64,000 nucleotides of DNA, from the NCBI RefSeq assembly GCF_900177345.1, contig NZ_FWZT01000011.1:124001-188000 (forward strand). Direction: 5' to 3'. Of this stretch, positions 23,685 through 25,720 are shown in pieces (within the stretch, counting starts at the first letter, position 1; each line of letters begins with the position of its first letter). Made by a program: the position numbers and the translations under genes. This DNA is from Pseudobacteriovorax antillogorgiicola (GTDB lineage: Bacteria > Bdellovibrionota_B > Oligoflexia > Oligoflexales > Oligoflexaceae). The notes beneath the pieces were generated by a model. The model did not search any database, was not told the origin of the DNA, and saw only the letters and a list, made by a program, of their open reading frames with translations.

Positions 23685-24206
23685 ATGGAAAATCTCAATA
23701 CCAAGGTTCTGTTTTCGAAAGACCAGCTTCAAGCCCGCATCGAGGAGCTAGGCAAGCAAATCTCTCAGGACTACGGGAATGAGCCCATTGTCGTGATTGG
23801 GGTTTTAAAAGGCTCCTTTATTTTCATGGCCGACTTGATTCGATCCATTAACAGCCCTTTAGAAATAGACTTTATTGGCGTCTCAAGTTACGAAGGCACC
23901 AGCTCCACAGGCCATGTCCGGATCACGAACGATCTCAAAATGGACATTGCTGGTCGAAACATTCTGTTGGTGGAAGATATCATCGACACCGGGCTAACCA
24001 TTGACTACTTGATTAACCTATTCAAGGTAAGCAACCCGAAATCCCTCAAAGTCTGCTCGCTCCTAAGCAAGCCAGAAGCCCACCAAATGACTCATACGAT
24101 CGATTATGTTGGCTTCGAAATAAGCCGCGAGTTTGTGATTGGTTACGGGCTCGACTTAGACGAACGTTATCGCGAGATTCCAGAAATTCTTCAGGTTATC
24201 GAATAG
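23685..24206 (+). CDS. hpt: Hypoxanthine phosphoribosyltransferase
   Basis: A 173-residue enzyme of normal length for the family; the ATG follows TAGGAG. It converts hypoxanthine or guanine plus PRPP to IMP or GMP (purine salvage). The PRPP-binding loop is LVEDIIDTGLT (about 95-105), GVLKGSFIFMADL is the N-terminal flexible-loop region and SSYEGT the hood motif. The C-terminal FEISREFVIGYGLDLDERYR is typical of bacterial Hpt. It overlaps the 3' end of the convergent gene at 24196 by 11 bases. Confidence 0.96.
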   Translation: MENLNTKVLFSKDQLQARIEELGKQISQDYGNEPIVVIGVLKGSFIFMADLIRSINSPLEIDFIGVSSYEGTSSTGHVRITNDLKMDIAGRNILLVEDIIDTGLTIDYLINLFKVSNPKSLKVCSLLSKPEAHQMTHTIDYVGFEISREFVIGYGLDLDERYREIPEILQVIE

Positions 24207-24699
24207 CCATTGCAGTGAGCTGCAAATCCGACCAGTCAATCACCATAGGGTGTCCGCTGAGACACCGAATTTGCCAATAATCGTCATAATATAGCCCATG
24301 GTCCCAGAGTTTCTTGGCAAGGTCTTCAAGCAGCATATCTAGATCCTGTCGAGAGCCAGCAAAAGGCTCTCCACAATAGGGTGAAACGTAGTAGCATAGA
24401 TCGTCTAGCTGCCCCCACTCCAACGGAGGAATCAGGGGGTGATCACATTGCCGGAGGCGCTCCATCGCCTGGAACCATCGCTGAAGCTCTGCCCCGGTTA
24501 CAAACTTTCGATGCGCAAGACTCAGAACGTAATCGAAGTCCTCTGTCCTGAAAAGCCGGCTTGAGAAATGGCGACCTCGGCCTAACTCGCGAAGCTTATG
24601 GGAATCACGAACTGCTTGGCTCACGCGGCTGGGGTCGTAGTAGCGATGAAAGTTCTTCTGAATGGCAGCATGAGCACCTTGCAATTGAAAAAAATCCAT
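24196..24699 (-). CDS. Small protein with kinase-like C-terminal motif
   Basis: A 167-residue cytosolic protein. No clear family, but the order of the C-terminal half (LWDHGLYYDDYWQIRCL followed by GHPMVIDWSDLQL) resembles the catalytic and metal-binding loops of protein-kinase-like folds, where an Asp in the first and DW/DF in the second are essential. The N-lobe ATP site is missing, so it would be a fragment or pseudokinase. It may equally be an unrelated fold. It starts upstream of the structured region at 24771-24957 and is transcribed away from it. Confidence 0.45.
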   Translation of the reverse strand: MDFFQLQGAHAAIQKNFHRYYDPSRVSQAVRDSHKLRELGRGRHFSSRLFRTEDFDYVLSLAHRKFVTGAELQRWFQAMERLRQCDHPLIPPLEWGQLDDLCYYVSPYCGEPFAGSRQDLDMLLEDLAKKLWDHGLYYDDYWQIRCLSGHPMVIDWSDLQLTAMAIR

Positions 24700-24770: not shown

Positions 24771-24811
24771 CTAGAGGGGGTCCAATCACCCATTTGGTCC
24801 TAAGCCCCTAG
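24771..24811. repeat. Stem-loop with nested inverted repeats
   Basis: CTAG-A-GGGG (24771-24779) pairs with CCCCTAG (24805-24811), and inside it CCAA (24782-24785) pairs with TTGG (24794-24797). A T6 run follows about 10 bases later, so it could also end a plus-strand transcript. No plus-strand gene precedes it. Confidence 0.5.
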
Positions 24812-24894
24812 ATTTAAAGTTTTTTATAACAGCTATGAAAATCCTTGGCTTTTTTTCGATCTTCATTTGAATTTGCCAAGTTCCTAGACATTTG

Positions 24895-24957
24895 TTATGG
24901 CTACTAACAGCTCATGTCTTGGGAGTTCCCAAGATGCCCATGCTAAGTAGCCAATAA
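24895..24957. repeat. Long imperfect inverted repeat upstream of a sigma54 promoter
   Basis: The outer arms TTATGGCTACT (24895-24905) and AGTAGCCAATAA (24946-24957) pair with one bulge. The centre contains TCTTGGGA-GT-TCCCAAGA (24917-24934), a perfect 8-base palindrome arm with a 2-base spacer. It sits 45-110 bases upstream of the -24 element at 25003, the usual place for a sigma54-activator enhancer, or it may form a structured RNA. Confidence 0.65.
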
Positions 24958-25002
24958 GACAACTGATCAAAGGCCAAATTACTGGCTACCCCTAGGCATC
25001 TG

Positions 25003-25018
25003 TGGCACAGGACTTGCT
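25003..25018 (+). promoter_or_regulatory. Sigma54 (-24/-12) promoter
   Basis: TGGCAC-AGGAC-TTGCT matches the consensus TGGCAC-N5-TTGCW with exact spacing. Transcription would start near 25029, about 65 bases before the small gene at 25093. It is the only site of this quality that I found in the window's intergenic regions. Confidence 0.75.
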
Positions 25019-25092
25019 TTAATTTTCATGTGGGATAATTCCCTGCTGAAACTAGAGCTGTTTACGCAACCTGAAAAGTCTTGGAGGTCGTT

Positions 25093-25296
25093 ATGCAAAC
25101 TGAAAATGAAAACAAGGTGGTCTCTATCTTCGACCGCCCAAAGAAGGCTGAGAAGCCCACTGCTAAAACTAAAGAAGATGAAAGCTATGACTTTGAAACG
25201 ATCATGAAAAAGAATGCTGAGAATTCTGGTCGTCAACAAAAAGAACGATCTAAAGCCAACCGTGGCGTGATTCGCTCTTACCGACTAAAACACTAA
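25093..25296 (+). CDS. Small charged protein under the sigma54 promoter
   Basis: A 67-residue protein. The ATG at 25093 follows GGAGG by 5 bases; an in-frame TTG upstream overlaps that ribosome site. It begins MQTENENKVVSIFDRPKKAE and is rich in Lys and Glu, with a basic end (RGVIRSYRLKH). No TM, no Cys. Disordered or helical in character. Its N-terminal motif VVSIFDRPKK resembles VVDFNAFRKKK of the next small protein. Function unknown; the promoter implies control by an enhancer-binding regulator. Confidence 0.65.
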   Translation: MQTENENKVVSIFDRPKKAEKPTAKTKEDESYDFETIMKKNAENSGRQQKERSKANRGVIRSYRLKH

Positions 25297-25440
25297 AGTC
25301 CCGATAGTCCCTCCGACTGTCGTTAGACCTTTTCAATCTGGAAGTTTACTGTACCGTTACCTGTTATTTGTTGCTCTTTGTACTTTGTTGTTACCTGCTG
25401 TTGCCTGTTGTACCTGTTGCTGTTGTTGGAGTTGTGTTGT

Positions 25441-25692
25441 ATGGACCAGAATGTTGTAGACTTTAATGCATTTCGTAAGAAAAAAGAAAACGAAAAAGAA
25501 ATTGGAAGAGGCCGCCTACCTTTACATGTAAGCCATTTAGATGGAAAGGTTACTGGTAGTCCTCACTTCAAGAGACCTCAAACTGAAGATTTTGGAGATC
25601 GGATGCAACGCATCAAGTCAAGTCTCGAAAAAATCAATCAGTTGATGGCCGACTTGAAGAAGAACTCGAAATCTCAAGACTTCCGCGATTGA
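25441..25692 (+). CDS. Small charged protein related to its upstream neighbour
   Basis: An 83-residue protein. The ATG at 25441 is chosen because the open frame before it reads as a cysteine/leucine-rich low-complexity leader encoded by TGTTG repeats. It starts MDQNVVDFNAFRKKKENEKE and ends with a likely coiled helix (GDRMQRIKSSLEKINQLMAD). Unknown function. A strong terminator follows 5 bases after the stop. It probably shares the sigma54 transcript with the protein at 25093; the gap of 144 bases includes a T/G-rich stretch (25355-25440). Confidence 0.65.
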   Translation: MDQNVVDFNAFRKKKENEKEIGRGRLPLHVSHLDGKVTGSPHFKRPQTEDFGDRMQRIKSSLEKINQLMADLKKNSKSQDFRD

Positions 25693-25697
25693 AACGA

Positions 25698-25720
25698 GAA
25701 GGCCTCACGGCCTTCTTTTT
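25698..25720 (+). terminator. Rho-independent terminator
   Basis: GAAGGCC (25698-25704), loop TCAC, GGCCTTC (25709-25715), then TTTTT. It ends the transcript of the two small genes and overlaps the stop codon of the convergent LuxR-type regulator. Confidence 0.93.

Follow-up and report, generated by a model that had tools for sequence, protein, structure and literature searches.

Which genes does the sigma54 promoter at this locus of Pseudobacteriovorax antillogorgiicola drive, and where would its activator bind? Flagella, nitrogen and envelope stress are the usual settings in which sigma54 control is described. Sigma54 polymerase stays closed until an upstream-bound AAA+ enhancer-binding protein remodels the complex by ATP hydrolysis. 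The locus lies in a 64,000-nucleotide stretch (the 64 kb window; contig NZ_FWZT01000011.1, positions 124,001 to 188,000), for which a preliminary description had placed a -24/-12 element behind large inverted repeats and ahead of two very small charged proteins. Comparison with related genomes indicates that the locus is very probably an operon under sigma54 control, conserved in Oligoflexia and their relatives, whose two genes encode microproteins of uncharacterised families. The promoter and the transcribed region comprise the following features:

25003-25018, plus strand: sigma54 -24/-12 promoter element TGGCACAGGACTTGCT, 11/11 consensus letters, kept 55-101 nt upstream in 39/50 orthologs
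25032-25043, plus strand: short hairpin GGGATAATTCCC where the predicted transcript begins, recurrent in Oligoflexales leaders
25083-25087, plus strand: ribosome-binding site GGAGG of ORF1
25093-25296, plus strand: ORF1, a 67-aa microprotein with a disordered N-terminus carrying a KVVSIF motif, a C-terminal helix and the conserved tail ANRGVIRSYRLKH
25369-25440, plus strand: spacer of TG[CT]TG repeats separating the two ORFs; the window has no other cluster of this kind (z 9.5)
25441-25692, plus strand: ORF2, an 83-aa microprotein with a helix at residues 8-22, a short beta hairpin and a long helix at 49-82 (AlphaFold2)
25698-25720, plus strand: likely intrinsic terminator GAAGGCC-TCAC-GGCCTTC-TTTTT, read, like the ribosome-binding site, from the sequence; the consensus scan did not report it

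The -24/-12 element, previously called near-perfect, is in fact perfect: 25003-25018 carries the -24 GG and -12 GC of TGGCAC-N5-TTGCW at the fixed spacing, 90 nt before the ORF1 start, and is the sole perfect match within the window. Genome-wide, 341 sites matched with no more than one mismatch, 15 of them perfectly, versus 115 for the reversed control; roughly two thirds of these sites therefore exceed chance. The genome encodes RpoN (PF04552 match at G000:C1:453808, E 1.9e-66), which was detected in 54/56 genomes. Applying a criterion of at least 9/11 consensus letters with GG/GC intact, we found the element ahead of 39 of the 50 ORF1 orthologs (at least 10/11 in 34, 11/11 in 17), compared with a mean of 0.47 and a maximum of 2 in shuffled upstream regions; these orthologs come from related genomes, and the counts are not independent events, with the families spanning at least two orders. 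One of the 11 orthologs without an element (G055) has its upstream region cut off by a contig end. A TGGCAC-N5-TTGAA variant, with A replacing the -12 C, is common to four genomes (G010, G013, G015 and G019; loci L054, L063, L104 and L107), and a match to the RpoN DNA-binding domain was absent in one of them, G010. The recurrence of the element ahead of 39/50 orthologs supports the earlier proposal that a predicted sigma54 promoter controls the two microprotein genes.

Both microproteins proved to be real genes conserved across the phylum. ORF1 was recovered in 39/58 phylum genomes by single-sequence search and in 48/56 by profile search (E up to 1e-4), and ORF2 follows ORF1 in 45/50 loci; the gap between the two is 144 nt in the window. 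In four close ortholog pairs, synonymous changes exceeded amino-acid changes (e.g. pN 0.13 vs pS 0.67). AlphaFold2 models, of moderate confidence, show ORF1 as a single helix (residues 34-62) behind a disordered start and ORF2 as two helices flanking a short hairpin. No member of either family matched Pfam above the cut-off; weak matches to UBact, HisKA and DUF5700 fell below it and were judged chance. Searches of NCBIfam (queried with ORF1 only), of PHROG and of solved structures in the PDB (both ORFs), and of phage contigs returned no relative, and ORF1 and ORF2 show no detectable homology to each other despite similar N-terminal motifs. A contig scan with ORF2, whose patterns reach close relatives only, gave 12 loci, all consistent with this group (with Pseudobacteriovorax, Oligoflexus and Oligoflexaceae assemblies among the named carriers) or with unclassified Proteobacteria. 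Both families appear confined to the phylum as far as searched, and we found no literature on a two-microprotein operon of this kind. The combination of a short N-terminal motif and a conserved helix suggests partner binding rather than an enzyme, and the microproteins are most likely small adaptors or regulators in which these two parts act on a shared partner.

Upstream on the minus strand (24196-24699) lies a divergently oriented gene whose 167-aa product matches nothing in Pfam; this gene and an hpt-like gene (23685-24206) occur near ORF1 in 7 of the 11 genomes compared. At other genomic loci (L012, L016 and L019), the genes for a ribosome hibernation factor (PF02482), pspA and a cytochrome P450 also have perfect -24/-12 elements before them. 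The phage-shock (PspF-PspA) and hibernation-factor genes thus share their promoter type with the operon but belong to known families, neither of which the microproteins resemble. Perfect sigma54 sites at the hibernation-factor and pspA genes hint weakly at a microprotein role in stress or slow growth.

Transcription would start ~12 nt beyond the -12 element, as expected from established sigma54 biology, and the transcript would begin with the short 5' hairpin, continue through ORF1 and ORF2, and end at the terminator. Across Oligoflexales leaders, the hairpin had a mean z of -1.15 (n = 30) versus +0.28 for the next stretch downstream. The TGTTG/TGCTG spacer is kept in most Oligoflexales orthologs and absent in the sister order; it could be an unstructured or protein-bound stretch of mRNA. 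By eye, several other sigma54-driven leaders resemble it.

The second part of the question concerns the region upstream of the promoter, where three features have to be weighed as regulator sites:

24771-24811, no strand assigned: second stem-loop named by the preliminary description, z -0.4 on one strand and +1.0 on the other
24874-24890, plus strand: TGCC-AAGTTCCTA-GACA, a probable upstream site for the activator that differs from TGTC-N9-GACA at one position and lies 129 bp before the -24 element
24898-24953, no strand assigned: imperfect inverted repeat (hairpin) of 56 bp, z -4.7, present as a single copy in the genome and not kept in orthologs

The second stem-loop did not rise above chance. 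The large inverted repeat, described as 63 bases long, was recovered as a strong hairpin of 56 bp with an exact palindrome, TCTTGGGA-GT-TCCCAAGA, at its core (24917-24934). The segment 24898-24953 folds at -26.2 kcal/mol, a value equalled by 0/200 shuffles. Its right arm, AGTAGCCA, may alternatively pair with TGGCTACC at 24983, giving another inverted repeat at 24946-24989. In this genus, an activator might bind the hairpin instead of the TGTC-N9-GACA-like site, with a dimer or dimer pair of a different activator on the core, although we consider this rather doubtful. The core is centred ~77 bp before the -24 element, a typical enhancer position, its 8-bp arms are perfect within a strong extended symmetry, and no terminator-like T run follows the hairpin. 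Against this stand its single genomic copy and its absence in orthologs; a one-site regulator is possible but unusual. Scanning the genome for further copies of the core with up to two mismatches gave only two imperfect ones at chance level, as many as the reversed control. A comparable hairpin was absent upstream of the ortholog in the nearest relative (G001) and in most others, in a comparison in which the window's genome was the sole one of its genus, and the strong folds upstream in G053 and G044 differ from the window hairpin. Because the repeat is missing upstream of orthologous promoters, its proposed role as a conserved activator site is not supported.

The hairpin might also be unrelated to activation, either a structural or RNA feature, such as a segment of an RNA that starts farther upstream, or a chance or decaying repeat, an explanation that we consider less likely than not. 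It ranks about ninth among the 66-nt folds of the window, in which comparable folds occur some nine times; both strands fold equally, and orthologs carry no counterpart. Set against these points, shuffling the AT-rich sequence of the hairpin gives far weaker folds, the only Rfam match in the window is one tRNA, and a scan of the region found no sigma70-like promoter. An upstream TTGACA-N16-TACACT was also considered as a sigma70 promoter and rejected, as its -10 is lost in L064/L066 and L059 with the palindrome kept.

That palindrome, TGTC-N9-GACA, points to a different activator site. An unbiased palindromic EM motif search across every upstream region was dominated by low-GC genomes and gave AT-rich tracts, and a targeted palindrome test was therefore used. 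TGTCA-N7-TGACA, equivalent to TGTC-N9-GACA, lies 129-142 bp before the ORF1 -24 element in five species of genus g23 and in G030; f11 genomes and G030 carry perfect TGTC-N9-GACA copies between -129 and -142. The window copy shares its offset with the perfect sites of five related genomes (-129 to -133), and one-mismatch sites are expected by chance at 0.11 per 300 nt. A composite search for exact TGTC-N9-GACA with TGG-N8-TTGC 61-119 nt further on found 66 matches in 11 genomes versus 1 for the reversed control, strong evidence for a predicted sigma54 regulon with a shared activator in the relatives. Genes downstream of composite sites include many predicted lipoproteins or secreted proteins, two that look glycosyltransferase-like by eye, and ORF1 in several genomes. 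At L198 (G030), one TGTC-N9-GACA lies between divergent -24/-12 elements, 81 and 84 bp away, as an apparent shared enhancer.

The same half-sites are known from the QseF/GlrR sites of Enterobacteria, TGTC-N10-GACA, which also lie upstream of sigma54 promoters (PMC8745638). The spacing here is N9, however, and an N10 composite gave only 3 matches versus 4 in the control across the same 11 genomes, i.e. no enrichment of the QseF/GlrR spacing.

Owing to its TGCC mismatch, the window copy is not a perfect composite, and the exact-letter search missed the ORF1 promoter in the window's genome (G000); orthologs in G034-G038 and others carry the perfect form. The nearest relatives (G001 and G002-G006) have no clear TGTC-N9-GACA at that offset, which indicates that the site turns over and that the activator site is not uniform. 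The 56-bp hairpin may be a lineage-specific addition that holds a second or replacement regulator site, either replacing or supplementing the turned-over upstream site. We give about an even chance to the combined reading that this is a core sigma54 microprotein operon of the phylum, partly included in a large TGTC-N9-GACA regulon, whose enhancer was rebuilt around the hairpin palindrome in the window's genus. In our main interpretation, which is the more probable one, sigma54 RNA polymerase would stay closed at 25003-25018 pending ATP-driven remodelling by an AAA+ enhancer-binding protein. That activator would most likely bind the TGTC-N9-GACA-like site at 24874-24890, a place occupied by perfect copies in relatives.

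As to the identity of the activator, the preliminary description had suggested a testable link to the sigma54 activator encoded at 2818 (L168), beside the YcaO locus. This protein has an AAA+ domain with GSFTGA and lies in the same 64 kb window, but it is one of about 21 sigma54 AAA+ activators in the genome. In a comparison of sampled activators across seven small relatives that keep the operon (G001 and G003 left out), a reciprocal best match to it came from G051 alone (36%). The operon, by contrast, is present in nearly every genome, and a link to 2818 is accordingly not supported; we regard its control of this promoter as very improbable. Full-length reciprocal matches in most of the seven relatives were found for L156 (with a PocR-type sensor domain), L151, L158 and L163. 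Autoregulation was no guide to the activator, as TGTC-N9-GACA occurred in activator loci 4 times versus ~3 expected, at chance level.

The TGGCAC-N5-TTGCW element, the enhancer-like palindromes 60-130 bp before it, and the RpoN and numerous AAA+ activators encoded in the genome correspond to classical sigma54 (RpoN) promoters. The promoter type is identical and already known; what differs is that the genes driven here are unnamed and phylum-confined as far as searched. Within the reach of our searches, neither of the two protein families nor the regulon motif has been described. From sequence alone, the TGTC-N9-GACA motif yields a list of co-regulated genes, among which predicted secreted proteins and lipoproteins are frequent. 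A phylum-conserved promoter in front of a core two-microprotein operon offers a testable entry into the role of sigma54 in predatory and environmental bacteria.
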